Shown: positions 7,911-50,300 of the stretch, piece by piece
How positions within the stretch are numbered: position 1 is the first letter of the stretch
How the letters are laid out: every line of letters begins with the position of its first letter
DNA from: Larus michahellis
Lineage: Eukaryota; Chordata; Aves; Charadriiformes; Laridae
Direction: 5' to 3'
Length of the DNA stretch: 64,000 nt
NCBI RefSeq assembly: GCF_964199755.1
Contig: NC_133917.1
Location: 5,647,967 to 5,711,966, forward strand
Notes under the pieces: model-generated
Seen by the model: the letters and a program-made list of their open reading frames with translations, nothing else
What the model was told of the DNA's origin: nothing
Databases searched by the model: none
Program-made: the position numbers and the translations under genes

Positions 7911-8861
7911 ATGCCCCAGGCTCTGCTCTTCCTCCTCTTCCTCTTCCTCCTCGGCCTGGGCACCAGCTCTGCCGCGCCGGCTGCCCACCGCGGGGCCGCG
8001 GCGCGGGCGCTGCTGGCGGAGCCGGCGGAGCAGATCCCGCCGCGGGCGCTGCCGGGGGCCGGGGTCTTGTGCCAGGACCTGCGTCCTGACGCCCTGCCCG
8101 GCTTCGCCCGGCTCCCGCCGCTGCCCCGTGCCCTGGCCCGTGCCGCCATGGCCCTGGCGCTGAGCGGGGCCGCCTGCGGGCCCCAGGCCGAGGAGGAGGT
8201 GCAGGGGCTGTCCCGGGAGCTGGGTCCCGCCACGGCCGCCGCGCTGCTGCGGGGGCTGGCGCGGCTGCGGGACACCCCGGCCCCCCAGGCCCTGCCGCTG
8301 CTCCTCAGCCTGGTGCGGCCGGGGGGCTCTGCCCCGCCATGGCCCTGCGCGGCCGCATCCCCCCAGCTCCGGCACCCTGCGGCCGGCACCCACCCCCCCT
8401 TAGCCGGGCTGCCGGCCACGGGACGCTCGGCCGAGAGGGTCCGGGGGGCCAGAGCCCACGCCTGGCTGCCTGCGTGCCGCCACGTCCCCCGGCAGCGGTC
8501 CCGGCGCCGGCGGGAGGATGAGGATGCCTGCAACCCGCCGGGGGAACGCGAGGCCCACGGGGTGATGGAGTGGGTGCCGGGCGTCAGCACCTTCTACAAC
8601 CTGGGCACCAGCCTCTACTACGCCTTCCAGGGCTGCGAGGCCCTGGCTTCCAGCCGGGCCCTGGAGGTGGCCGAGGACTTGGGCTACGCCGGCTTGTCCG
8701 CTCTCACCGCCGGCGCCGGCGGCCCCGTGGCCCTGGGGCTGCAGCTGGGGCTGCAGCCGGGGCTCAAGGCCGGGGTGCGGGCGCTCATCGGCTACTTCAC
8801 CTCGGAGGGGGAGCCCCCGCCGGCCCCCACCGCCCACAGCGGCCCCGTCCTCATCGTCTGA
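7911..8861 (+). CDS. APOF: Apolipoprotein F (lipid transfer inhibitor) preproprotein
   Basis: A secreted plasma protein that associates with lipoproteins and modulates CETP-mediated lipid transfer. The whole 316-aa CDS sits in one exon. The hydrophobic signal peptide (about residues 1-22, rich in L/F) is followed by an alanine/leucine-rich propeptide. A basic processing site SRRRR (near residue 201) releases a C-terminal chain of about 115 aa, starting EDEDACNPP and containing VPGVSTFYNLGTSLYYAFQ, the diagnostic conserved block of the family. This matches the known furin-type maturation of ApoF, although the mammalian mature chain is longer (about 160 aa). Start choice: first ATG of the exon, directly before the signal peptide. 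It lies between TIMELESS and STAT2 as in mammals. The stop codon shares its last base with the poly(A) signal. Confidence 0.93.
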   Translation: MPQALLFLLFLFLLGLGTSSAAPAAHRGAAARALLAEPAEQIPPRALPGAGVLCQDLRPDALPGFARLPPLPRALARAAMALALSGAACGPQAEEEVQGLSRELGPATAAALLRGLARLRDTPAPQALPLLLSLVRPGGSAPPWPCAAASPQLRHPAAGTHPPLAGLPATGRSAERVRGARAHAWLPACRHVPRQRSRRRREDEDACNPPGEREAHGVMEWVPGVSTFYNLGTSLYYAFQGCEALASSRALEVAEDLGYAGLSALTAGAGGPVALGLQLGLQPGLKAGVRALIGYFTSEGEPPPAPTAHSGPVLIV

Positions 8862-9049: not shown

Positions 9050-9580
9050 TGGCTCCCGTAGCCCTGTCCCCGTAGCCCATCCCTACAGCCCCTAGCCCTG
9101 TCCCCACAGCCTGTCCCCATCCCAGGTGGCTGCAAAGCTTGTCCCCACAGGCTGTCCCTGTCCCCATGGCTCTGCCCCCTGTCCCCATGGCCTGTCCCTG
9201 AACCCATGGCTCTGTCCCCCTGCCCCACAGACTGTCCCCATGGCTCTTGTCCCCGCAGCCCGTCCCTGTCCTCATGGCTCTGTCCCCACGGGCTGTCCCT
9301 GTCCCCATGCCTCTGTCCCCGTGTCCCTGCAGCCTCTCCCTCTCCCCACAGCCCGTCCCTGACCCCATGCCTCTGTCCCCCTGCCCCACAGCCTGTCCCT
9401 GTCCCCATGGCTCTGTCTCTCTGCCCCACAGCCTGTCCCTGTCCCCATGGCCCTGTCCCCACGGCTCTGTCCCCACGGGCTGTCCCTGTCCCCATGGCTC
9501 TTGTCCCCGCAGCCCGTCCCTGTCCCCATGGCTCTGTCCCCATGGCTCTGCCCCGCAGCCCGTCCCTGTCCCCACGGCCC
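9050..9580 (+). repeat. Minisatellite between APOF and STAT2
   Basis: Degenerate tandem units built from CTGTCCCC, CATGGCTCTGTCCCC and CAC(A/G)GCCTGTCCCTGT, about 24-48 bp per higher unit. It fills most of the APOF-STAT2 gap. Reading frames stay open on both strands only because of the repeat, so they are not treated as genes. Confidence 0.85.
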
Positions 9581-10445: not shown

Positions 10446-13400
10446 ATGGCGCAGTGGCAGGAGGTGCAGAGTCTGGCCAACGCCTGCCTGGAGCAGGTGC
10501 ACCAGCTGTACGCGGGGGCGGCGTTGCCCATGGTGGTGCGGCAGTGCCTGGCCTCCTGGATCGAGGACCAGAACTGGTAACAGGGCCGGAGGGGGGTGGG
10601 GGGTGTATGTACGTCTGGGTCTGGGTCTGGGGGGCTCAGTGCCGGACGGGGCGTGCCGTGCCGGCGCTGAGCCCGCGGTGCCGCAGGCGCCAGGCGGCCG
10701 AGCCGCTCTCTTCCCACGCCCGGATGCTCTTCCATTCCATGCTGGCGCTGCTGGGCGAGCACCTGGGCAGCCCGGGGCTGGGCGACGAGGACTTCATGCT
10801 GAAGCATAACCTGCGCAAGGCCTGCCGTGACCTCCAGGTGGGCAGGGGGGGCCGGGGCCGGGGGGGGAGGAGAGGGGGGCAACGAGGGTCTCTGCGCCCC
10901 GCTGACCCCCCCCAGCCCCTCCGCAGGCCGAGTTTGGGGAGTGCCCGGAGAAGTTTGCCAACCTGGTGGACAACCTGCTGCAGGAGGAGCGACGGATCCT
11001 GCGCCTGGGGCAGGCGGGAGGGCAGGTAGGCCGGGGTCTGTGTGTCCCCCCCCCCCACCCCCCAGCCCCACGGGACCCTGCCGGCCACTGCCCGACGCCC
11101 CATGTCTCCGCAGGGGGGGGCTGCCCCGGCACCTGTCGCACCCCCAGAGAGTGACCGGGAGCAGCAGATCCAGCGGCGCTTGGCCGAGTTCCACGTGGCC
11201 CTGCAGGTAACGGCCCCCCTGGGCGCCCCCCCGCAAGGACCCCAGGTGCTACCCATCCCCTCACCCCTCTCTGCCCCCCCAGGAGGCTGAACGTGCCTTC
11301 CGTCACCTGGAGGACCTGCAGGACACCTTTGACTTCTGCTACAAGGTGCACTACCAGCCGGGTAAGGACCGATCCTGCCCACACCGGGGGTAGACGTGGG
11401 ACAGCGCTGCCCTGCGCCCCCCCTAATCCCCCCCCGTGACCCCCTTCTCGCCCCCCTCCCGCAGGCGAGGCCAGGACCAGCGACCCCCAGTACACCCAGC
11501 AGGTCCAAGCCCTCCAGGCCAAGCTGCAGATCCTGGACCGGCAGCGGCGGGTGAGATGGGGACCGGGGTTGGGCTGGGGGGTGTCACAGCCACCCTGCAC
11601 CCCCCGGCTCAGGCACGTGTTTCCCCCCCCCCCTCCTCCCCCAGGAGGTGCTGGCGCAGATGCAGCAGCTCCTGGGGCGCAGCGAGACCCTGCGGGATTT
11701 CCTGCAGCAGGAGCTGGGGGCCTGGCGGGAGCGGCAGCAGCGCGCCTGCATGGGGGCCCCCGCCGACACCTCCCTGCGCCTGCTGGAGACCTGGTAGGGC
11801 CTGGATGGGACGGGGACGGGGACGAGGGACAACAGCTGGCCCCTGATGAACGCCCCCCCGGCCCGCTTCCCCCCCCCCCACCCACCCACCCCCGGCACCC
11901 GCAGGTTCACGGAGCTGGGCCAGGGGCTCTTCCAGCTGCGGCAGCTGCTGCGGGCGCTGGGGGAGCTGCGGCAGAAGGTGACGTATGAGAGGGACCCGTT
12001 GAGGGAAGAGACCCCCCTCCTGGAGCGGCGGCTGCAGGAGCTGCTCACCTACCTGCTGAAGAGGTGGGGGGGGGCTGGGGAGGGGTGTCGGGGTGTTTTG
12101 GGGTGGTGGGGTGGGGGGGGATGGTGGTCCAGGGGGCAGCCCTGACCCTCCCGCTGCCCCCAGCGCCTTCGTGGTGGAGCAGCAGCCCAGCATGCCCAAC
12201 GCCTGCAAGCGCCCGCTGGTCCTGCGCACCACCAGCAAGTTCTCGGCCCGCGCCCGCCTCCTCGTCCGCCTCCACGACCGCAACCACGGCATGGAGGCCA
12301 GCATCCACATCGACAGGTCGGGACCCCCCCCGGGGCTAACCACCCCCCCTCCTCTGCCCAGCCGTGGGGGTCCCGAGACCCCCCCGCTCCCCGCTGACGC
12401 CCTGTTGTCTCTTGCAGGGACCCCCCCAAGATAAAAGGGTGAGAGCCGAGCGAGCGCTGCGGGCAGGGCTGTACCCCACACACCCCCCCCCACCAGGGGG
12501 TCCCGGCCCCGCCGACCCCGCGGACCTCTCGCTGCCCCCGCAGGTTTCGCAAGTTCAACATCCTGACATCGAGCAGCAAAACCCTCCTGGCAGGGGACAG
12601 TCCCCAGGACGGGCTGGTCTGTGACTTCCAGTACCTGGTAGGGTCCCTCCCCCACACCCCAAGACCCTCATGTCCTCCATGGTGGGGGGGGGGGGGGGGG
12701 GTCAGGACCCCATCGTCCCCCCACCCCACCCTGGGCTGACCCTCTCCTGCCCCGCAGACGCTGAGGGAGCAGAAGGACAGCAGGTCGGGCAAGGGCGGCA
12801 AAGGCACCGGCGAGGTGGGTGCGGGGCTGGGGGGCGCGGGGGCGGCGGGTGCCACGCGGTGCCCCACGGTGCCACCTCCGCGCAGGGACCCCTGGTCGTG
12901 ACGGAGGAGCTGCACCTCATCACCTTCACGCTGGCGTACGCCTACTGCGGGCTGGAGCTGGAGCTGGAGGTGAGCTGGGGGGGACCGGGGGGCCTGGGGA
13001 AGGGCCGGAGGGGTTGGGGGCGGCTGGTCTGACCTGTCCCCCCCCCGCCCCACTCTCCCCACAGACCTCCACGCTGCCCTTCATCATCATCTCCAACAAC
13101 AACCAGCTCTCCAGCGCCTGGGCCTCCATCCTCTGGTTCAACGTGCTCAACAGCGTCACCAGCGACCGTATGGTGAGCGGGACCCCGCGCCCTCCCCGCT
13201 GCCCCCGCGGGCTCCGGGGGTCCCGTCCCCATCCCTGCTCCTCACCCGGTCTCCGTCCCTGTGTCCTGTCCCAGGTTCCTGGGCTCTGTCCCTGGTCTTC
13301 CCACCGTGCCCTGTCCCTTCTCCTGTCCCCAGTCCCTGCTCTGTCCTTGTCCCAGTTCCACCCCTGTCCCCTGCCCCTGTGCGTGTCCCCGTCCCCTGGT

Positions 13401-16400
13401 CCCTGTCCCATCCCCTGCCCTGGTGCATGTCACTGTCCCCTTGTCCCTGTCCCATTCCCATCCCTTGTGCGTGTCCCTGTTCCCTGGTCCCTGTCCCATC
13501 CCCATCCCCTGGTCCCTGTCCCATCCCTGTCCCCTGTGCAAGTCCCCGTCCCCTTGTCCCTGTCCCATCACCATCCCTTGCCCCTGTGTGTGTCCCTGTC
13601 CCCTGGTCTCTTTCCCATCCCCGTCCTCTGCCCCGGTGCGTGTCCCCGTCCCCTGCGGCGTGTCCCCGTCCCCGCTCACCCCGTCTCCCGCAGGACCAGC
13701 AGTTCTTCTCCAAGCCGCCCCCAGTGCCCTGGCCGCGGCTGGCCGAGGTTCTCAGCTGGCAGTTCGAGAGCGTGGCCGAGCGGGGCCTGAGCAGGGACCA
13801 CCTCCTCATGCTGGCCGAGAAGCTCTTCGGTAAGGCCGGGTGCCAGCCCCGAGACCCCCCGGGGCCGGGACAGGGGCCGTGCTGCCCCCCTCACCCTGCT
13901 CTCGCCTCCAAGGCTCAAAGCCGTCTCCGGAGAGCACCTTGACCTGGCCCAAGTTCTCCAAGGTGAGTGGTGCCCGTCCCCCCGTGGCCCCGTCCCAATG
14001 TCCCCCCGTTCTCCCGTAGCCCCGTCCCCCCCCAACTCACCCCCCCTCTCCCACAGGACGGCGCCTCCGGCTTCTCCTTCTGGGCCTGGCTGGACGGGAT
14101 CCTGGGGCTGCTCCAGGAGCAACTCAAGGAGCTCTGGAAGAATGGGTAGGAGCAGGGCCGGGGGGGCCGGGGGGGGGGCACCGGCAGCCGCTGGGGCTGA
14201 TGGTGCCTCCCCCAGGCTCATCCTGGGCTTCGTGAGCCGTAAACAAGAGAAGAAGCTGCTGAAGGGGAAGCGGACGGGGACGTTCCTGATCCGGTTCAGC
14301 GAGAGCGTGCTGGGGGGGGTCACTTGCACCTGGGTGGAGCACCCCGAGAGCGGTGAGCATGTTGTCGTCCCCCCCCCACCCCGCCACCACCGGGGTCGAG
14401 CCCCTCACCCGGGCCTCAGGCCTGCCCTGGGCACTGACTGGGGCTGTCCCCCTGCCCCGCAGGACGCCCCGCTTTCCGCTCGGTGGTTCCCTACACCGCG
14501 GCCGAGCTGGCGTCCCTGGCGCTGCCCGACATCATCCGCGACTACCAGCTGCTGGTGGAGGAGAACATCCCCGAGAACCCCCTCCAGTTCCTGTACCCCG
14601 ACACCCCCCGCGATGAGGCCTTCGGGCCCTACTACAGCCAGCGGGAGGAGGGTACGGCACGGTGCGGCGTGGCGCGGCACGGCACGGCGCGGGGGCAGTG
14701 CCCACCGCCCCCTCCGACCTCTCCTCTTGTCCCCAGGGAACCTGTTGGAGCAGAAGAGGTACCTGAACCGGCGCCTCATCCGCGTGTCCTCCAGGTGAGG
14801 CAGGGGGACGCCTTGGTCCCTCCGGAGGGAGGTCCCTCCCTCTTCCCCCGTGGGAAGAGGGACCCTCAGCCTTGTATCCTTGTACCCTCACCCTGACCCT
14901 GGCCCTGTCCTAACCCCAGACCCTGACCCTGACCCTGACCCTGACCCTGTCCTAATCCCAGACCCTCACAGAGACCCTGACCCTGACCCTGTCCTAACCC
15001 CAGACCCTGACCCAGACCCTGACCCTGTCCTAACCCCAGACCCTGACCTTGACCCTGTCCTAACCTCAGACCCTGACCCAGACCCTGACCCTGACCCTGT
15101 CCTAACCCCAGACCCTGACCTTGACCCTGTCCTAATCCCAGACCCAGACCCTCACAGAGACCCTCACAGAGACCCTGACCCTGACCCTCTCCTAACCCCA
15201 GACCTAGACCCAGACCTAGACCCAGACCCTGACCCTCTCCTAACCCCAGACCCAGACTCTGACCCTCACCCAGACCCTGACCCTGACCCTGTCCTAACCC
15301 CAGACCCTGACCCAGACCCTGACTCTGACCCTGTCCTAACCCCAGACCCTGACCCTGACCCTGTCCTAACCCCAGACCCAGACCCTGACCCTCACCCTGA
15401 CCCAGACCCTGACCCTGTCCTAACCCCAGACCCTGACCCAGACCCTGACTCTGACCCTGTCCTAACCCCAGACCCAGACCCTGACCCTCACCCTGACCCA
15501 GACCCTGACCCTGTCCTAACCCCAGACCCTGACCTTGACCCTGACCCTCACCCAGACCCTGACCCTGTCCTAACCCCAGACCCAGACCGTGACCCTCACC
15601 CAGACCCTGACCCAGACCGTGACCCACCGTCTCTCCCTGCAGGCAGGCAAATGAGTCGTGGCAGACAGAAGAAGAGTTGGTGGCTGCTACGGAAAACCTG
15701 GAGACGCTGCAGCTGCAGCCCGGTGGCCTGGGGACACAGCAGCCCGGTGGCCTGGGGACGCAGCAGCCCGGCAGGTCGGGGACATTGCAGGTCCCATCTG
15801 GGAACCTGGGGACGCAGCAAGCGATGGCTGTGAGCCCAGGGATGCCGCAGCCCCCGAGCTCAGGGACGCAGCAAGCAGTGGCCGGGAGCGCGGGGATGAT
15901 GCAGCCCGAGGGCTCGGGGACGCTGCAGCAGCCAGGGCCCCAAGGCCTGGGGCCACCGCGGCCACTGCAGGTGGGATCGGGGGTCTCGGAGATGCTGCAG
16001 GCAGGGATTGGGGACCTGGAGCCGCAGCTGGTGCTGCAGCGGGTCCCCGAGGGCCAGGGGACGGTGGCACCAGGGGGTGTGGGGACGCTGCCCGTGCTGC
16101 CCGAGGGGCTGGGGGTGCTGCCCGAGGTGGCCGGGAACGTGGGGATGCTGCAGCCAGTGGTGGGGGCTGTGGGGCCGCTGCTGGTCCCCGAGGACGAGGG
16201 GACGCTGCCACCGGAGCTGAGGGACCTGGAGCTGCTGCACAGGAGCCTGGACATGGAGGAGCTCCTGCAGACGCTGTCGGAGGGGCTGGAGCCGGGCTCG
16301 GGGACGCTGGAGACGATGGAGGCACCGGAGCTGATGCCCAACATGGCAGAGGCCACCGACGCGGTGGCAGAGGGGCTGGGCCCCGGGCTGGCGAGTGAGT

Positions 16401-16601
16401 GTCGGGGCTGAGGGGGGACACGGGGCGGGAGGGGGGGTCCCCTCGGCACTGACCTCTCCCCATCCCGCAGGCGCCCCCACGCTCCTGAATCCCCACGACC
16501 CGTTCCTGCCGCAGCTCGAGGACGCAGCCCTGTCCCCTGTCAGCTCCTTCTTCGCCACCGACTTCCCCCCGCTCCATATCGACGCCAACGACTTCCAGTG
16601 A
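10446..16601 (+). CDS. STAT2: STAT2, interferon signal transducer with expanded C-terminal domain
   Basis: Latent cytoplasmic factor that joins STAT1 and IRF9 as ISGF3 after type I/III interferon. Coding exons: 10446-10576, 10687-10837, 10927-11025, 11114-11206, 11283-11361, 11465-11550, 11645-11793, 11905-12063, 12164-12316, 12418-12438 (21-nt microexon), 12544-12637, 12758-12814, 12886-12969, 13065-13172, 13694-13829, 13913-13962, 14057-14145, 14216-14352, 14463-14651, 14737-14794, 15643-16394, 16471-16601. Total 3006 nt, 1001 aa (human 851). Order: N domain (MAQWQEVQSL, WIEDQNW), coiled coil, DNA-binding domain (FRKFNILTSSSKTL), linker, SH2 (GTFLIRFSES, pTyr-binding Arg606), the JAK-target tyrosine Tyr697 (KRYLNRRLI, equivalent of human Tyr690), then an activation domain of about 295 residues. 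That domain is roughly twice the human length and made of G/T/L/Q/P-rich repeats. It ends in an acidic aromatic tail. The paralogue STAT6 is less likely because of the N terminus and gene neighbours. Confidence 0.96.
13235..13682 (+). repeat. C-rich minisatellite in a STAT2 intron
   Basis: Irregular tandem CCCTGTCCC(A/C)TCCC units fill nearly all of the intron between coding exons 14 and 15 (521 bp, the longest intron of the DNA-binding/linker part). The opposite strand is GGGACAGGG-rich. Confidence 0.8.
14872..15635 (+). repeat. Telomere-like (CCCTGA/CCTAACCCC) array in STAT2 intron
   Basis: About 760 bp of CCCTGACCCTGACC hexamers punctuated by CCTAACCCCAGA (about a dozen exact CCTAACCCC plus variants such as CCTAATCCC and occasional CCCTCACAGAGACCC blocks). 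It occupies the intron right up to the acceptor of the activation-domain exon. The complementary strand reads GGGTCAGGGTCAGGG with interspersed GGTTAGG, a degenerate relative of the TTAGGG telomere repeat. The period is a multiple of three, so both strands carry long open frames (PDPDPD or GQGLGQ) that are not genes. Confidence 0.9.
15715..16260 (+). repeat. STAT2: In-frame coding minisatellite in the STAT2 activation domain
   Basis: Inside the 752-nt exon, the units GGGGACGCAGCAGCCC, GGGGACGCTGCAG and GGGGATGCTGCAGCC recur at irregular spacing. They give protein repeats of the type GGLGTQQP, GTLQ and GMLQP, grading into GTLPVLPEGLGVLPE. Other + frames are also free of stops across most of the exon, as expected for recent tandem expansion. 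Mammalian STAT2 has a different degenerate acidic LE/PE repeat at the same place. Confidence 0.75.
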
Positions 16602-16715: not shown

Positions 16716-16831
16716 TTTATTAGAAACTCATAAATACCCGAGATAAATAGGGAGCATCGCACATAAATAGCCCCTCGGGGCGGAGGGGAATAAATAGTCG
16801 GGGTGGGGGGGGGAAACACAGCCAGCCGGCC
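16716..16831 (-). promoter_or_regulatory. IL23A: IL23A 3' UTR with AU-rich elements and poly(A) signal
   Basis: Read on the minus strand, the 3' UTR (about 115 nt) contains four UAUUUA pentamer cores (complement of TAAATA at 16791-16796, 16764-16769, 16744-16749 and 16731-16736). It then has AAUAAA (complement of 16716-16721). Such AUUUA clusters are the classical cytokine mRNA instability signal bound by TTP/AUF1/HuR. They are conspicuous because the flanking sequence is almost pure G+C. Confidence 0.85.
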
Positions 16832-18458
16832 TCAGCGGGGGCTGGCGCTGGCGCTGTGGGTGAAGACGCGGCTCATGACGGCGGTGAAGGACTGGAGCCG
16901 CTGGAGCGCCAGGTGCCGCAGCAGCAGCCGGTCCCAGTTCCCGATGGGGGACATGGGGTGCGGGGGGGGGCGGCTGTGCTCCTGCTGCGGGGAGAGAGCG
17001 GGGTCAGGGGCGGGGGGAGCCCGAGGCTGCGGCCGATGGGCAGCCACTTCCCCGGCTGCGGGGGGAACAGGCTGCCACACAGACCCCCCCTCCCGCCCTC
17101 TCACCTGGACGTGGCCCAGCAGCTGGTCCAGCGCCGTCTCCAGCTGGGGCAGGCGGTGGGTGGTGAAGATTTCGGAACCCAGCAGGTCCTGGTAGCGCTG
17201 CAACCCTTGGCGGATGCGTTGCAGGCAGCGCTACGGGGAGCGGGGTGTGAGCTGGGCACCCCCCCACACCCTTCCTGGCACCCTGGAACCCCTGGGCACA
17301 TCCCTCAGCATCCCTGGGATCCCCGGGGACATCCCTCAGCTTCCTTGGGACCCCTGGGGCACCCCTGGAACCCCCGGGCACGTCCCTCAGCATCCCTGGG
17401 ACCCCTAGGGCACCCCTGGGACCCCTGGGCACGTACCTCAGCATCCCTGGGACCCCTGGGGCACCCCTGGGACCCCCGGGCACGTCCCTCAGCATCCCTG
17501 GGACCCCTAGGGCACCCCTGGGACCCCCGGGCACGTCCCTCAGCATCCCTGGGACCCCTGGGGCACCCCTGGAATGCCCGGGCACGTCCCTCAGCATCCC
17601 TGGGACCCCTGGCTACCCCCAGCACCCCTGGGAACCCCAAACACCTCCCTCAGCATCCCTGGCGACAAACAGGCACCCCTGAGAACGGACCCCCCCATGC
17701 GCATCCCTCAGCATCCCTGGGACCCCCCCCCCCTCCCCGGGCACCCCTGGAGACCCCAGGCACATCTCTCAATGTCCCTGGGACCCCCAGCACCCCTGGC
17801 TACCCCAGACGCAGCCCTCAGCATCCCTGAGGACAAACAGGCACCCCTGGGAACACCCAACATCTCTGGGACCCCCGTGCACATCCCTCAGCATCCCCAG
17901 GCGCCCCTGGGACCTTCCAGCACCCCTGGGACCCCCAGGCAACATCCCCCAGGCTCATCCCCCCCCAGGACGCCCTCAGGCTCCCTGCCCGCCCCGCCGC
18001 GGCCCCGCAACACCCCGTGTCCCCCGGTACCGTGTTGTTGGTGTCCAGCGTGGAGGGGTCGCAGGCGTCACTGCAGCGGATCCGGGGGGGCCAGTTCTCG
18101 GGGTCCTCCTCGCTCAGGTGCATCTCATCCTAGCAGCGGGGGGGTCAGCGGTGTCCCCAGGGCCCCCGCACCCCTCCGGCACCCCGCACCCTCGGGGCAC
18201 CCCTCCTGCCGCGATGCCCCGCACCTTCCAGCGCCCACAGCCCCCCGGCCGCCCCGGTTCCCCCCCGGCCGAGCCCCCCGCGCTCACCAGGATCGGGTGC
18301 GGCTCCTTCAGGGTCGCCAGCAGTCGCGACAGCTCCCGGGAGAGGCTCCTGCAGGCGGCCCAGTCGGTGCGGCGGTCCGGGACCGGGACCGGGGCCGCGG
18401 GTGGCGGGAGCAGCAGCGGGAGGCAGAGGCAGAGGAGGATGCAGCGGAGCGAGGCCAT
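16832..18458 (-). CDS. IL23A: Interleukin-23 subunit alpha (p19)
   Basis: A secreted four-helix cytokine that pairs with IL12B (p40) to form IL-23, driving Th17-type responses. Four exons on the minus strand: 18288-18458, 18031-18129, 17105-17230, 16832-16984. All introns are phase 0; total 549 nt, 182 aa (human 189). A signal peptide (leucine-rich, residues 2-22) precedes DWAACRSLSREL. Exon 2 has the IRCSDACDPSTLDTNN block equivalent to human IQCGDGCDPQ. Exon 3 gives RCLQRIRQGLQRYQDLLGSE (human [20 protein letters not shown]). Exon 4 gives the helix-D region NWDRLLLRHLALQRLQSF and AVMSRVFTH. The four cysteines of the family are present. Exon 4 has a CAGCAG tandem acceptor. Position between STAT2 and PAN2, in opposite orientation, matches mammals. 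p19 evolves fast, so the match is by pattern and synteny rather than high identity. Confidence 0.93.
17262..17965 (+). repeat. 51-bp minisatellite in IL23A intron 2
   Basis: Around ten or more copies of a unit of about 51 bp with core AGCATCCCTGGGACCCC, GGGCACCCCTGGGACCCC and CGGGCACGTCCCTC, decaying toward 17965. It fills the intron between exons 2 and 3 of IL23A. Because 51 is divisible by 3, frames stay open on both strands (+ frame from 17574 through 19589). Confidence 0.9.
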
Positions 18459-18504
18459 TGTCTGTCGGTCTGTCGGTGCCGCCACCGGCGCCGCCACCGG
18501 GCTC

Positions 18505-31505: not shown

Positions 31506-31929
31506 GCCAGTGCAGGGGCGGGGCCGGGTCGGCCGTGGGGGCGGAGTCAGCGCAGGCCCCGCCTCCCCGGGGCCGAGCGCCACGCGGACCGGGCCCTGGC
31601 AGCGCCGGGGCCCTCGTCGCTCGTCCCGGGCTGCCCGCGGCGCTGCCTGCGCACGGGATGGACCCGCCCCGGCCGGTCCGACCGGCTTGGTCGCCTCGAC
31701 CCGTTCGGCCGCCCCGACCGGCTCGGCCGCCGCCGTCTCCGAGCGGTGTTCCGCCGCGGCGGGTCGGGCGGAGGGGGGCGGCGGGACAGGCGGCACCGAG
31801 GGCAGCCCCGGGGCAGCCGGCCGGGGCGGGGGGCGGTGGAGCGGGACGGGAGAGCGGAGGGTACTGGGGGCTCGGCCGGGCCCGCCGGGTGCGGGGCTGC
31901 GGGGGAGGCTGTGAGCGCCGCCCTGCAGG

Positions 31930-32345
31930 GGAGGGGGCTCTGGGGGAGCTGTGGACGCGGTCCTGTACGGGAGGGGGCTCTACAGGGGGCTCTGGGCTCG
32001 TCCCTATAGGGGAGGGGGCTCTATAGGGGGGCTCTGGGCTCGCCCCTGTAGGGGAGGGGGCTCTATAGGGGGGCTCTGGGCTCGCCCCTATAGGGGAGGG
32101 GGCTCTATAGGGGTCTCTGGACTCGTCCCTATAGGGGAGGGGGCTCTGTAGGGGGCTCTGGGCTCGTCCCTATAGGGGAGGGGGTCTACAGGAGACTCTG
32201 GGCTCGTCCCTATAGGGGAGGTGTCTCTACAGGGGTCTCTGGGCTCGACCCTATAGGGGAGGGGTTCTATAGGGGGGGTTCTACAGGGAGGTCTGGGCTC
32301 GATCTTATCAGGGAGCTTTATAGGGGCCACTGGACTCAATCTCGT
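31930..32345 (+). repeat. About 42-bp minisatellite in CNPY2 intron 1
   Basis: Units of the type GGGGAGGGGGCTCTATAGGG plus GGGCTCTGGGCTCG(C/T)CCCTATA. Roughly eight to nine copies, degenerating to the right. It lies just after a plausible CNPY2 exon 1 donor (31910|GTGAGC). Repeated CCCTATAGGG is palindromic. Confidence 0.85.
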
Positions 32346-36144: not shown

Positions 36145-38576
36145 ATGACGCTCCTCGCCGCCGGCAGCCGGGCGGCCGCGCGCCTCCGCGGGCCCAAGGT
36201 GAGGGCGCCCGCCCCGGCCCCGCCGCGCCTTAAAGGGGCGACGCCGCGGCGAGGTGGGGGGGGGGGGAGGGGGGCCGGTTCTTAAAGGGGCGACGCGGGA
36301 GGGGGGTGGGGGGGGCGCTGCCTTAAAGCAGAGCGGGGGGTGGGGGGGGGGGCGCGCAGGGCCGCGCGCCGCAGCGGCTGCACGTGGTGGGCGCGGGCAC
36401 CGGCGCCGCCTCCGCTGGGAGCGCCGGTACCGAGCGATGGGGCGGGCTGCCTCCCCCCCGCCCCCATTCTGGGGATCCCCACCCCGCTGCAGTCGTTCCC
36501 CCCCCCCCCCCGGGGGATCGCTGCCCCCCCTTCCCCCCCCCACTGGGGGGTTGCGCTGCGGCGGGAGGGGGCCTACGCCAGCCCCGGGGGCTCCCTCCGG
36601 GCGGCACCGGTAGTGGGGGGGGGTTGGGGGTTCCCTTCCGCCCCCTCCCCCCCCCGGAGAGCCCAGTGCTGTAGAGGGCAAAGGGGTCACAGCGGGGGGG
36701 GACCCCCTGTCCGGTTCCGGGGCTGTGCTGGGGGGAGCAACGGTGCAGGGCTAGGGCGAGCCCGGTCCGTTCCGCCCCCCCCCCCCCCCCCCCCGCCCCG
36801 GTTTGCCTTGGCCGCGGCCCCGGCGTTTCATAACGGCCGCTGCGGCGTCTCTATCGACCGGGCGTTATTTTGGGAGCCGGGGCCCGGCCCGGCGTGTTGT
36901 CGTGCCCCACTTGGCCCCGTTCACCCGTGGGGGGGGGGGGGGGGACGGGACGGGACACACCGCCGCCCCCGCCGCTTGGGGCCACCCCGCCGACTCGCCC
37001 CTGCCGCCGCCCTCCCCCCCCCTCAAAACGGGGGGGGCCCCCCCCCATCTCCAAACGGCGGCGGGGGGGGGGGGCACCCGGGAGGGTCCCGGGGTGGCCG
37101 GGTCTGCCCCGTCCCCCTCCGCCGGTGCTCGGTGTCACCGCCAACACGTGTGACCTTGAGCCGGCGACACCTCCGGGACAGCCCGGCCCGGCCGGGACCA
37201 GCCCCTGCGGACGCCCGGTGAAACGGGGTGCGGGGCGGACACCCCCCACCCCCCCCCCCCCAAGAACCCCCGGGGCAGCGGCCGCCTTGACCTTGGGCTT
37301 CCCGCTGCCGCCTCCATTGTTCCCGCCGGCATTTTCCCCTCCCGGTGCCGCCTGTTGCAGGGGGGGACACGGTGCCGTGGCCGGTTCCAGCCCCACTGGG
37401 GGTATCGGGGTCCCCCTCCCCCCCGGTCCGGGTTGGGGGCTCGCTGCAGCGCTGTGTGTGTCCCCCCCCCCAGCCCCCCGCCACTCCGCGTCCCCTGGCA
37501 GCCGGTGGAAAAAGCGAGTCACGTTCTGGCTGCGCTCCCGGGGAAGGTGACGGCTCGGGATGGGATGTGGCCCCCCCACCATCACAGCGGTGGCCGCGGG
37601 CAGGCGATTCCCGGCCCCGCTTTGCCCACCCGGGTGTTTGCGGTGGGTGCCCTGCGGGCGAGCCCCCTCCCCGTGTCCCCCGCCGTGGGTCGGGCGCTGC
37701 CAGGCCCGGGCTCCCCGGCTGCGTCAGGGCGTTCCCGGCCGGAGTCCCCCCACCCACGCAACAAAGATCGGTTCCCACAACCCCGGTGCAGGAAAACGGC
37801 AGCGATGCCGGCCTGGCCGGGCTCCGGAAGCGGAACGCGGCCGGCAGCCTGCGTGATGGGAATGAGCGCGGTGCAGCACCGGGGACCCTGCGTTCCGTAC
37901 CCCCCCCCTCCTCCCCCAGCCCCCCCTAACCCTGCCCCGGCCGGCCCCGCTCAACCTGCCTGGCTCTGAGCTCCGGCAGGCGTGGGCGAGGGAAGCCACC
38001 GCCGCAGCTGCCGGGCGCAGCGTCCTTGTGAGACGGGACCTCGCCGGAGTCACGGGGTGGCTCCTGCCGTGGGAGCTGTGCCGGGGGCCGGGGGTGCTGT
38101 GGGGGGGCCATGCTGGGGCCTGGGGATGCTCTGGGGGGCTGTGCTGGGGCCCAGGGATGCTCTGGGGGGCTGCCCCAGGGGTCGGGGATACCCTGGGGGG
38201 CTGTGTGGGGGCTAGGTGTGGTGTGGGGGGCTGCGCTGCGGCCTGGGGATGCTCTGGGGGGGCTGTGCTGGGGGCTGGCGATGCTCTGGGGCGCTCTGCT
38301 GGAGCCTGGGGATGCTCTGGGGGGCTGCGCGGGGGCTAGGGGTACTCTGGGGGGCTCTGCTGGAGCCAGGGATGCTCTGGGGGGCTGCGCCGGGGGTTTG
38401 GGATGCTCTGGGGGGCTGCGCCGGGGGCTGGCGATGCTCTGGGGGGGGCTGCGCTGGGGCCTGGGATACTCTGGGGGGCTGCGCCGGGGGCTGGAGGACC
38501 AGGGCTGTGACGCGGTGCTGGGCTGTGCTGTGCTCCAGAGCTGGGAATGCTCCGGGGCTGGTGGCTGCTTGTATGG

Positions 38577-38618
<42 letters not shown>

Positions 38619-41211
38619 CCGCCCCCAAAACAGGGCGGCCGGGGTGCGCGGTGGGGCTCTCCCCGGGTAACACCGTGTCCCTGTGTCCGTTCTTCCCCAG
38701 AACGCGCCGTGCGTCCTCTTCGCCGCCCGTCACGCCAGCGCCGCCACGGTAAGAGGAGCCCCCGTTGCCGTCACCCTTCGCCGGCGCTGGTGGGGGGCAG
38801 CGTGTGCTCGACACCCCCGGCGCCTACCGGGGCTCACGACCCACCCCCACCCCCCCCTCCCCTCTTCCCAGAACCTGAAAGACGTCCTGGCCAGCATGAT
38901 CCCCAAGGAGCAGGCGAAAATCAAGAGCTTCAGGCAGCAGCACGGCAACACGGCCATCGGGCAGATCACGGTGGACATGGTGAATGGCGGGGGGTAGGGG
39001 GGGACACACACGCCGCGTCCCCGCCGGGCTGCACCGCAGCCGGTAACCGATTCTCCTTTCCACCCTCCCCCAGGTGTACGGCGGGATGAGGGGCATGAAG
39101 GGGCTGATCTACGAGACCTCCGTGCTGGACCCCGATGAGGTAGGGCCCGATCCTGCCCTGCGCGGGTGCCCGCCCGCCTCCCGCGGGTGACGCCGCAGCG
39201 GCTGACGCTGGTGCCGGGCTTTTTAGGGCATCCGCTTCCGCGGGTACAGCATCCCCGAGTGCCAGAAACTGCTGCCCAAAGCCGCGGGGGGAGAGGAGCC
39301 GCTGCCTGAGGGGCTCTTCTGGCTGCTGGTGACGGGAGAGGTGCCCACCCAGGAGCAGGTAATGCGTGGGGGGGGAGGGGGGGTGTCGGTTGTGGGGGGC
39401 GGCTGCTGGCCCCCTGTCGCCCCCCCTTCCTGCTCAGCGCCCTGCCCCGTGTCACCCACCGCAGGTGAGCTGGGTGTCGCGCGAGTGGGCCCGGCGCGCG
39501 GCGTTGCCCTCCCACGTGGTGACCATGTTGGACAACTTCCCCACCAACCTGCACCCCATGTCCCAGCTGAGCGCCGCCATCACCGCCCTCAACAGCGAGA
39601 GCAAGTTCGCTCGCGCCTACGCCGAGGGCATCCACCGCGCCAAGTACTGGGAGGTACGGGGAGGGGGGAACCGACGGGTCCCGGTGCAGCGCCGGTTGGG
39701 GGGGGGGTGCTCAAACACCCTGGCTCCGAGCACGGGCGCAGGTTTGGGCATGGGGCGTCAAGGGCTCGCACCCCCCGCCCCCGCCGGGGGAGAGCAGCCG
39801 CCCCCATCTTACCCCACTGGTCCCAGTTTGTCTACGAGGACGCCATGGACCTGATCGCCAAACTGCCTTGCGTCGCCGCAAAGATCTACCGCAACCTTTA
39901 CCGCGAGGGCAGCAGCATCGGGGCCATCGACCCCAACCTCGACTGGTCCCACAACTTCACCAACATGCTGGGCTACACCGACCCCCAGTTCATCGAGCTG
40001 ATGCGGCTCTACCTCACCATCCACAGGTACGGACGGGGCCGGCAGGAGCAGGCGGGGGGCTCGGCCCCGGAGCCAGGGATGGAGCCGGGTCCTGGGACGT
40101 GCCCGGGCTGCTCCGGGGGTGTCACCAGGCACACGGCGTGGGGCCACGGGCAGCCGCGGGGCAGGGTTGTGCCAGGCTGGGTACATCACGGGAGGGGGGG
40201 GTGTCAACTGTTGGGGGTGCCCCCGCGGCTGTGGGGGGCCCTGGGTAGGAAGGGGGGCGAGCTGACGTGCCCCCTCGCCCCTGCAGTGACCACGAGGGGG
40301 GAAACGTGAGCGCCCACACCAGCCACCTGGTCGGCAGCGCCCTCTCCGACCCCTACCTCGCCTTCGCTGCCGCCATGAACGGGCTGGCCGGGCCCCTGCA
40401 CGGCCTCGCCAACCAGGTGGGCACCTCCGCGCGTCCGTCTCTGTCCGTCTGTCCGTCCGTCCGTCCACGTACCGCTGTTCTCACCCCCTCCTCCGCTTGC
40501 CGTGCCCGCAGGAGGTGCTGCTCTGGCTGACGGACCTGCAGAAGGAGCTGGGCCAGGAGGTGTCGGACGAGAAGCTGCGGGATTTCATCTGGAACACGCT
40601 CAACTCGGGCAGGGTGAGTCCGGCTCTGGCCAGGGCGAGGGACGGGGGCCATGGCGGCGCCGGGCTCTGACCCCTCCTCGTTCCCCGTCCTTGCAGGTGG
40701 TGCCGGGGTACGGACACGCCGTGCTGCGGAAGACGGACCCCCGCTACACCTGCCAGCGGGAGTTCGCCCTCAAGCACTTGCCCAAGGACCCCATGTTCAA
40801 GCTGGTGGCCCAGCTCTACAAGATCGTCCCCAACGTGCTGCTGGAGCAGGGCAAGGCCAAGAACCCCTGGCCCAACGTGGACGCTCACAGCGGGGTCCTG
40901 CTGCAGGTGAGCCGGGGGTCCGGCGCCGCTCCCCGGGGGGCTGCTGAGGGCTCCTGGCTGCCCCCCTCCCTGGGGCTGCCGTGCCCTGACGCCTCTTTTT
41001 TCTTTTTTTTTTTTTTTTTTTTTTTCCCTCCCCCCGGCAGTACTACGGGATGAAGGAGATGAACTACTACACGGTGCTCTTCGGGGTCTCCCGGGCCCTG
41101 GGCGTCCTCTCGCAGCTCATCTGGAGCCGGGCGCTGGGTTTCCCCCTGGAGAGACCCAAGTCCATGAGCACGAAGGGCCTCATGCAGCTCGTGGGCTACA
41201 AATCTGGGTAA
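36145..41211 (+). CDS. CS: Citrate synthase, mitochondrial
   Basis: First enzyme of the citric acid cycle: condenses acetyl-CoA and oxaloacetate to citrate in the mitochondrial matrix. 11 exons: 36145-36198, 38701-38748, 38872-38979, 39074-39139, 39227-39358, 39465-39653, 39827-40026, 40287-40416, 40512-40613, 40697-40906, 41041-41211; 1410 nt, 469 aa (human precursor 466). An arginine/alanine-rich presequence ([14 protein letters not shown]) and the HASAAT cleavage region come first, then [36 protein letters not shown] and [20 protein letters not shown]. The catalytic triad is His304 (GPLHGLANQ), His350 ([16 protein letters not shown]) and Asp405 (WPNVDAHSG). Intron 1 is 2.5 kb and repeat-rich. 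The last intron ends in a 30-bp T-rich run. Confidence 0.97.
36228..36335 (+). repeat. Three CTTAAAGGGGCGACGC-type units at start of CS intron 1
   Basis: CTTAAAGGGGCGACGCCGCG at 36229-36248, CTTAAAGGGGCGACGCGGGA at 36280-36299 and a degenerate CTTAAAGCAGAGCGGG at 36322-36337, separated by G-runs. A near copy, CTTAAAAGGGCAACGCCGCG, occurs at 309-328 upstream of TIMELESS. Confidence 0.6.
38095..38500 (+). repeat. About 30-bp minisatellite in CS intron 1
   Basis: GATGCTCTGGGGGGCTG(C/T)GC(T/C)GGGGCCTGG recurs about 13 times. The rest of intron 1 (36340-38090) is GC-rich, with many homopolymer G and C runs and no gene I can support. Confidence 0.85.
38579..38616 (+). repeat. (AC)19 microsatellite
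   Basis: A pure AC dinucleotide run, about 85 bp before the CS exon 2 acceptor. Confidence 0.97.
40996..41025 (+). repeat. CS: T-run forming the polypyrimidine tract of the last CS intron
   Basis: About 28 T interrupted by a single C, followed by CCCTCCCCCCGGCAG. Its length probably varies between individuals, and it sits 15 bp from the exon 11 acceptor. Confidence 0.9.
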
Positions 41212-47346: not shown

Positions 47347-50300
47347 ATGGGGATTCTCAGCATCACGGACCAGGTAACCGCCGCCCCCCGCCCCGCTCCG
47401 CCCCGCCGCCCCCCGCGCCGCGCCCGCCCGCGCCGCCACGCCAGACCGGGGATGCGCGGCCTAGTCCGCCCCGCCGCCGCCCGCCACCGGGCCCGGCCCG
47501 GCCGCCGCCCCAGGCCGGGGCCCCCCGCCCGCCGCCTCACGGGGCCTCCCGGCCCGCTCTCGCCCGCAGCTGGGGCCCGCCGGGCCTCCCCCGCCGCCCC
47601 GGCCCGCCGCCGGGATCGCCGCGCTCCGCTCCGCCCGCAGCCGCCGGGGCCCGGCGGGGGCGGGATCCCCGGCCCGGTAAGGGCAGGGCCCCGGGACGGG
47701 ATCCCCCGCCGCCGCAGGGAGCGCAGACCCCCGGGGGGCAACCATCGGTCCCGGTAGCCCCGGGACGGGACCCCGGCCTACGCCGGGGCCGCTGCCGCCC
47801 GCTGCCGCCCCCGTCGTGTCCCCGGCGGGTTTTGGGGGCGCTCCTGGGCTACGGCGTTTCCCCAGCACGGTTTTGGGGACAATTCCGGGGCGCACAGTGT
47901 CCCCCTCGGGTTTTGGGGACACTTCTGGGGTGCAGGGTGTCCCCAGCATGGTTTTGGGGACACTCCTGGGGTGCAGAGTCTCCGCCTTGGGTTTTGGGGA
48001 ACACTCCTGGGTGGTGGGGTGTCCCCGCGGGGCTCTGGGGACGCTCCTGGGGCGTACAGTGTCCCCCTCGGGTTTTGGGGATGCTTCTGGGATGCAGGGT
48101 GGTCCCCAGTGCTGTTTTGGGGATGCCCTGGGGTGCAGGGTGTCCCCCTTGGGTTTTGGGGAACACTCTCCTGGTTGGTGGGGTGCCCTCGCTGGGCTTT
48201 GGGGACGCTCCTAGGGTGCACGGAGTCCCCCTTGGGTTTTGGGGACACCCCTGGGGTGCAGGATGTCCCCCTCGGGTTTTGGGGACACTCCTAGGGTGCA
48301 GGGTGTTCCCCTCAGGTTTTGGGGACAATTCTGGGGTGCGGAATGTCTCCAGCATGGTTTTGGGGACGCTCCCAGTGTGCACAGTGCCCCCCTCAGGTTT
48401 TGGGGATGCCCCTGGCGTGCAGGGTGTCCCCTTTGGGTTTTGGGGACACTCATGGGGTGCAGGGTGTCCCCAGCACAGTTTTGGGGACACTCCTGCGGTA
48501 CAGAGTCTCCCCTCAGGTTTTGTGGACAATTCCGGGGTGTGGAATGTCTCCAGCATGGTTTTGGGGACACTCCCGGTGTGCACAGTGTCCCCGTCACGTT
48601 TTGGGGATGCCCCTGGGGTGCAGGGTGTCCCCTTTGGGTTTTGGGGACACTCCTGAGGTGCAGGATGTCCCCTTCGGGTTTTGGGGACACTCCTGGGGTG
48701 CAGTGTCGGCAGTACGGTTTTGGGGACACTCCTGGGGTGCAGAGTCTCCCCCTCGGGTTTTGGGGACACTCGTGGCGTGCAGGATGTCCCCAGCATGGTT
48801 TTGGGGACAGTTCCAGGCTGCAGGGTGTCCCCAGCACGATTTTGGGGACACTCCTGGGGTGCAGGGTGTCTCCCCACCGGGTTCCAAGGCAGCCCCCACC
48901 CTGGTGTCACCAGCTCCTGGCCCGGCCCATCCCATCCCAGGGTCTCGCTTGGGACCCCCCCTCCATCCCCTCGCAGACCCCTCACCTTCTCCCGGCTTGT
49001 GGCTGCTGCCCCTACCCTGTCACCGGAGCAGTGGCCCCCGCTTGGACATCCACTCTCCCTCGCGCGTTTTACATAAACCGCCTTAATCCACCTCGATTCG
49101 GGGGCTGCTGGCCCCTCGAAACCAAATATTTACGCCTGTGTCCCTGTCCTGTGTCCCCCCCCCCCGCCCATTCCTGCGGTACGGTTAATACAGCGAGCGT
49201 TTGGAGCCTGGCAGGGTGGATGAAGGAGGGGAGGGGTGAGGACGAGGGATTGATCTGGGTTTTAAATAGAACTTTTTTTTTTTTTTTTTTTGGTAACCAA
49301 AACATTGAGCTTTCCCTGTGAATGGTGGGTGGGTGTGTCAGACCCAGCACTGCTGCAAACCGCGCGCCACTGAAGACTGCTCAGGGCATAATTATCGTCT
49401 GCGATTTTTTTATTTTTTTTATTTTTTTTTTTCCTAAAGCCTTTTTTTTTTTTTTTTAATGTCTTAACGAGTGATGCTGAGTCTGCTGCATTCCAGGGGA
49501 ATGACTCACGCGTTCCCTCTGACCCGGGATGTGTTCCCCCCTGTCTTTAACTGCTCTTACTTTGACGGTGGGGTGAGCAGATGAGCGGGAGGTCGGTGGG
49601 GCAGCGGGGAGGAGAAGGGATTGCCTTGAAAACGAAGCGCTGTTGTTCCTCCGAGACCTTGAGATAAGTGGGGCTCGCCGGTTGTGGCTGTTGGACCCAG
49701 CTGTTGGGGCGTACCGGGGCTGCTGGGGGTCACAGCACCCTGGGCTTAACGTGCGAAAAGCAGCAGCGTCTCGTCCGGCCGGAGCAGGGGAGCGTTGGAT
49801 TTGGCAGGATTGTGGGGTACCGAGTGCTGAATGGACCCAGAGCAGCCTCAGCCCCCGCCTCCGAGGAACCCTCAGCAGGAAAATGGTGTTTTCAGGCCTG
49901 AGAAATGGGGCGCAGAGTTTTCGGCCGATGTCCGGAGGTTGGGCAGCACCTCACCACCGACCGGCCTCGCCGCACCGACGGCTCGGGCAGCTCCAGTCCT
50001 GCAGCCCAGGGCACCAGCTGGCTCGGTGGCCTGGGCTCCGCTCCTGGCTTTCACCCAGGTCCGCTCCGTAACGTCTCTGAGATGTGGGCAGCAGGATACA
50101 GGAGGAGCTCCGGGCTGGGCTTTGCCGGGCTGGGCTTTGCCGGGCTCTTTGTGCCATCGGAGCCAGCGTGGCATCGTAGGTGTTACTCAAAAGACAGGAG
50201 AGCAGCAGTAAATTCACAGCCTTCTGCAGGAGAGCATGAGGCATCACCTAGTTGTGACAGGAAACCCGATTCACTGTCTGCAAAGATCTGTCTCGTACCC

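Follow-up and report, generated by a model that had tools for sequence, protein, structure and literature searches.

The gull Larus michahellis carries an ordinary and probably working STAT2 gene, in which an old in-frame minisatellite of high GC content has probably extended the C-terminal activation domain; the likely driver is mutation bias acting on a weakly constrained linker. The window analysed here is a stretch of 64,000 nt of contig NC_133917.1, and all positions refer to it. The tail of the predicted protein, beyond the SH2 domain, measured 294 residues, compared with approximately 150 in human when counted from the equivalent position (around residue 701 of 851); the first-pass annotation had given about 295 and 150. 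A tail about twice the human length and partly made of degenerate short DNA repeats appears largely real. Its enlargement by in-frame repeats of the minisatellite type, as the same annotation had proposed, was upheld by the open frame and by the excess of repetition over shuffled sequences.

The predicted STAT2 gene and its long exon

The predicted gene covered positions 10446–16601 on the plus strand, with 22 coding exons, GT-AG introns and a single terminal stop, for a protein of 1001 residues. The exon borders were picked by hand from the GT-AG junctions and one open frame. Exons 1 to 20 and their introns extended from 10446 to 14794 (+) and were delineated by the junctions and the open frame, together with Pfam and structure matches. 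Their 707 codons corresponded to the N-terminal, coiled-coil, DNA-binding, linker and SH2 domains, and Pfam found STAT_int, STAT_alpha, STAT_bind, STAT_linker and SH2 in that order. In the search of solved structures, the top match was human STAT2 with 683 bits, residues 1–735 of the prediction facing human residues 1–726. STAT2 chains followed at 682 and 648 bits, the latter being 7zn7_D, which we take to be rat STAT2, and the best STAT1 chain reached 560. The core length of about 707 residues put forward earlier agreed with the codon count before exon 21 and with the alignment to human STAT2. Judging from the sequence, the order of the STAT domains and the best match to STAT2 among the STATs identify the gene as STAT2.

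A search of the host assembly with the STAT_linker profile gave six places, one of which was this gene; the other five are presumably paralogues. A piece of 88 nt from the start of exon 21 had one match in the assembly, and a 226 nt piece of repeat block A (see below) was found at one place in the genome, in a search with stated limits on repeats. The genome appears to hold a single STAT2 locus.

Exon 21, located at 15643–16394 (+) and recognized by its open frame and splice sites, encoded amino acids 708–958, with which the C-terminal activation domain begins. It measured 752 nt between an AG acceptor and a GTGAGT donor and had no stop in the frame that the preceding exons impose; the coordinates and length assigned to it by the first-pass annotation were exact. 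As 752 is not divisible by three, a transcript lacking this exon would read the last one in a different frame. This last coding exon, at 16471–16601 (+), was placed by its frame and AG acceptor and carried the end of the tail, up to residue 1001, with the stop codon. The frame of exon 21 was open in five of 1000 dinucleotide shuffles; another frame of the plus strand had one stop and one frame of the minus strand had none. The openness of the frame, taken alone, is moderate evidence for coding. The GC content at the three codon positions had the same shape in exon 21 (0.79/0.49/0.86) and in the core (0.66/0.41/0.93).

Repeat blocks and composition of exon 21

Two blocks of degenerate repeats were delineated by TRF and by a listing of the units. 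Block A, at 15731–15985 (+, end approximate), corresponded to amino acids 738 to about 822, with units of 8, 10 or 11 codons that mostly started with G-[TM]-x-Q; the pattern G-T-x-Q recurred. The unit starts extended from amino acid 738 to 811 with spacings of 8, 8, 10, 10, 8, 10, 8 and 11 codons. Block B, at 16058–16228 (+, end approximate), corresponded to amino acids 847 to about 903, with units of 8–10 codons starting with G-[TVMP] and unit starts from amino acid 847 to 894, spaced by 8, 10, 10, 10 and 9 codons. The last start of block A and the first of block B were 36 codons apart, with non-repeat sequence between the two blocks. The starts were located with a regular expression designed once the protein had been inspected, and the spacings, equivalent to 24–33 nt, are whole codons by construction since they were read from the protein. 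In all 16 listed units, the first codon was GGG and the next residue Thr, Met, Val or Pro. One isolated unit-like start was present in the acidic end at amino acid 928, and a 17th match of the expression, at amino acid 954, was left off the list.

TRF accepted three arrays in the exon: 15715–15771, overlapping block A (24 nt × 2.4, 96% identity, 57 nt); 15809–15927, within block A (54 nt × 2.2, 80% identity); and 16087–16127, within block B (21 nt × 2.0, 85% identity). The arrays covered 217 of the 752 nt and the two blocks together approximately 426 nt, slightly more than half of its length. The last quarter, from about position 16208, was mostly unique and acidic. The earlier description of the exon as consisting of repeats was borne out for the two blocks, which exceeded the shuffles, but was too broad for the exon as a whole.

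The protein encoded by exon 21 had a self-similarity score of 51.2, compared with 28.7 for shuffles (SD 1.6; highest of 300, 33.9), and the self-match of the DNA was 30, where 60 codon shuffles gave no value above 17. Ten copies of the hexamer GGGGAC were present, whereas 200 dinucleotide shuffles averaged 1.44 copies and had no more than 5. The motifs were concentrated in one codon phase, with 11 of 12 starts for GGGGA, 9 of 10 for GGGGAC and 15 of 15 for CAGC, whereas in the core CAGC was divided between two phases (19 and 14 of 33). The core was also phased for other motifs, CTGCAG falling in a single phase in six of six cases and GCAG in 31 of 37, and the phasing in exon 21 is therefore partly a matter of codon usage. 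Taken together, the shuffles and the unit listing indicate that exon 21 holds a coding minisatellite, taken as tandem in-frame units of approximately 10 nt or more, beyond what is expected by chance.

The repeat part (168 amino acids) was rich in G (21%), P (14%), Q (13%), L (12%) and V (10%), with a net charge of −7, as compared to L (17%), P (15%) and E (15%) and a net charge of −24 in the human tail (144 amino acids), in agreement with the shift in composition relative to mammals announced by the first-pass annotation. The last 104 residues of gull STAT2 were acidic again, with a net charge of −18. Neighbouring copies were compared along the TRF arrays in four comparisons, one of which overran its array: 11 of 44 codons differed in residue and 7 of 44 silently, and the differences fell at all codon positions. 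A fifth comparison, at an offset of 54 nt (1 silent and 14 changed of 18 codons), was excluded as its register had no TRF support. These small numbers do not suggest a strong selection on the repeat residues and are such as would be expected of a weakly constrained linker. An AlphaFold model of the tail alone, made without an alignment, had a mean pLDDT of 42.8, with 241 of the 294 residues below 50; such a model is compatible with disorder and, made in this way, proves little. According to the available portions of two publications, the tail is where STAT2 diverges most between species (PMC8745392; PMC4215117).

The acidic end and other STAT2 tails

The acidic, leucine-rich end of exon 21, at 16208–16394 (+), overlapped the end of block B and might form an activation helix. 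AlphaFold placed low-confidence helices at tail residues 191–202 and 205–215, in the model of the tail alone, and a weak alignment with the mammalian tails was obtained: the score of 51 with the human tail was matched by 54 of 2000 shuffles, and that of 41 with the rat tail by 188 of 2000. In the human tail, the aligned segment was the Glu/Leu-rich stretch ahead of the CBP-binding piece, and the alignment may for this reason reflect composition. We take 2ka4 to be the CBP TAZ1 complex and 2ka4_B the TAZ1-binding piece of human STAT2. The Pfam family STAT2_C had no match up to an E value of 10, either in the last 105 residues or in the whole tail, the human control giving 2.5e-34. The STAT2_C profile presumably rests mainly on mammals, and with such a profile the missing match weakens the case for conservation of the CBP-binding segment and does not bear on the identity of the gene.

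The last exon was compared with the mammalian C-termini by local alignment, and the scores were not significant, being matched by 1613 of 2000 shuffles for human and 1713 of 2000 for rat. Anchoring at the end was again not significant: for human, 277 of 5000 shuffles scored as high over the final 38 residues and 316 of 5000 over the final 43, and the corresponding values for rat were 1569 and 1386 of 5000. Windows of the same protein scored as high in the end-anchored comparisons in 7 and 19 of 958 cases for human, and in 88 and 63 of 958 for rat. The human end-anchored score may lean toward similarity, a leaning and no more, and similarity is not claimed. A likeness of the last exon to mammalian C-termini, seen by eye (DP, S-F, TD-P-L, DF), was rejected as the alignments were not significant. 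Against human, the beginning of exon 21 and the repeat part scored no better than 1190 and 1110 of 2000 shuffles, respectively. The tail alone gave no family in Pfam and in the solved structures, where a match to Mediator subunit 8 (E 2.7) was judged compositional, and a scan of viral contigs for the tail gave no relative.

A minisatellite in STAT2 has a precedent in mouse, where the insertion is reported to lie in frame, in the tail. Farrar and colleagues reportedly described in 2000, going by the title, a loss of the interferon-induced activation of STAT4 that accompanies a minisatellite inserted into mouse Stat2, and Park and colleagues are said to have called murine Stat2 "uncharacteristically divergent" in the title of a 1999 article. 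The minisatellite is in the same gene in mouse and in gull, but in a different lineage. A functional effect, the loss of STAT4 activation, has been named for mouse, whereas the gull repeats are known from their sequence. With the mouse minisatellite already published, the gull case represents a further lineage and not a new kind of event. The human activation domain (6wcz_A, residues 702–851) occupies the same place in the protein, with internal repetition and an acidic composition; it differs from the gull tail in being Glu-rich and approximately 150 residues long, as compared to 294 residues with a Gly/Gln/Pro-rich repeat part, and in being matched by the STAT2_C profile. The self-similarity of the human tail was 31.2, compared with 21.5 for shuffles (SD 1.4; highest of 300, 26.6), whereas that of the rat tail, 22.9, was not above its shuffles (19.7; highest 23.1). 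The notion that both lineages have repeats at the same place is thus supported by the human tail and not by that of rat. The further suggestions of the first-pass annotation, that the domain was rebuilt and that the repeats turned over independently, find no support in this single species.

In salmon, STAT2 isoforms have divergent activation domains, which the available part of the article does not present as growth of a minisatellite (PMC4215117). As far as the accessible text goes, a contig of chicken STAT2 was one of those with the highest expression in an RNA-seq study of interferon and was absent from an older chicken assembly (PMC4974698). No mention of tail repeats was found in the accessible portions of the papers retrieved on chicken, duck, goose and avian STAT2, and a search for STAT2 with tandem repeats, birds and positive selection returned no paper. 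The first-pass annotation had placed the repeats in a domain targeted by pathogens. In the available part of the relevant article, the NS5 proteins of dengue and Zika viruses contact the N-terminal and coiled-coil domains of STAT2 (PMC8745392), which for these two viruses does not match that suggestion.

Repeat-dense surroundings and probable origin of the long tail

The intron preceding exon 21 was itself occupied by a minisatellite, with units of the CCCTGA/CCCAGA type, at 14890–15626 (+; TRF, for example period 30 × 24.5 and period 42 × 17.5). The array of 737 nt made up almost the whole of intron 20 and stopped 16 nt short of exon 21, and by inspection its unit differed from those of the exon. 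In all, 1128 of the 3150 nt of the STAT2 introns were in TRF arrays after merging by hand (1143 nt when one row of period 6 was counted whole). In the coding sequence, arrays were present in exon 21 only (217 of 3006 nt). The contig holds another STAT gene, presumably STAT6, and 9.9 kb of its region had three short TRF rows, none like this array, which suggests that the repeat density is local.

Further minisatellite arrays were detected by TRF within and near STAT2 and its neighbours, at 9096–9580, 13309–13655, 17277–17963, 31927–32276 and 38071–38494. The segment 19563–31373, mostly of lower GC content, was without any TRF row. At 47816–48883, a 40 nt minisatellite was present in 26 copies, its consensus unit holding the inverted pair GTGTCCCC and GGGGACAC in each copy. 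Directly upstream of STAT2, positions 8000–8861 contained the end of a coding region, which we take to resemble apolipoprotein F. A gene on the minus strand, at 16820–18459, adjoined STAT2 and is presumably IL23A by gene order. At 40697–41211 (+), two exon pieces closely matched chains of mitochondrial citrate synthase.

We propose that units of 8–11 codons multiplied in the exon for the stretch that links the SH2/phosphotyrosine segment to the acidic C-terminus. As the units would have multiplied in whole codons, the reading frame would have been kept. The likely consequence would be a longer flexible linker, rich in Gly, Pro and Gln, ahead of the acidic activation segment, and co-activator recruitment may have been kept by the acidic end and the last exon. 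The driver was likely a local mutation bias of this GC-rich, minisatellite-dense gene, and not a selection for variable length. In the simplest reading, a locally repeat-prone gene took up a minisatellite in its one weakly constrained coding stretch.

The repeat residues might instead constitute a selected activation or condensate-forming sequence, rich in Gln, Pro and Gly, that replaced the acidic repeats of mammals. The enrichment in Gln and Pro over the 168 residues and the recurrence of the G-T-x-Q pattern would fit such a role, but the copies changed residue at least as often as silently (11 compared with 7 of the 44 codons), and we consider this explanation unlikely. We give a clearly smaller chance to an artefact, by which exon 21 would be misassembled or would be in part an intronic repeat read as coding. 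Dense tandem repeats surround the exon, its frame is only moderately unlikely to be open in shuffles and is accompanied by an open frame on the minus strand, and the codon borders, free of TRF rows, were chosen by hand. Against this, the introns have GT-AG borders, the frame continues through to the stop that closes the final exon, the GC content by codon position is shaped like that of the core, and the units are, by inspection, unlike those of the intron array.

The first-pass annotation had suggested that the exon could be a length-variable tuner of interferon output. Allele length would then differ between individuals and would set that output, perhaps because the activation segment is carried further from the DNA-bound core. 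The array at 15715–15771, with its 96% identity, could gain or lose units of 8 residues. However, the exon start and the 226 nt piece of block A were each at one place in the assembly, and so represent a single allele, and the other two arrays, at 80–85% identity, are probably old and slow. With one assembled copy and a near-pure array of only 57 nt, such a tuner seems very improbable. We attribute a similarly slight probability to a wider version, in which the STAT2 linker of amniotes would be a recurrent nursery of minisatellites, in the gull lineage, in mouse and in the form of an older Glu/Pro repeat in human, and in which steps of 8 residues at 15715–15771 would still shift the reach of the activation segment from the DNA-bound complex and so the strength of the interferon response.

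The growth of an old minisatellite in a weakly constrained linker, which we favour, would make the gull the second lineage, beside mouse, with a minisatellite in STAT2, in line with a tolerance of the linker for changes in length. If the tail is built from repeats across the lineage, profiles such as Pfam STAT2_C would miss tails of this kind, and comparisons of STAT2 activation with mammals would have to allow for a doubled and differently composed domain.
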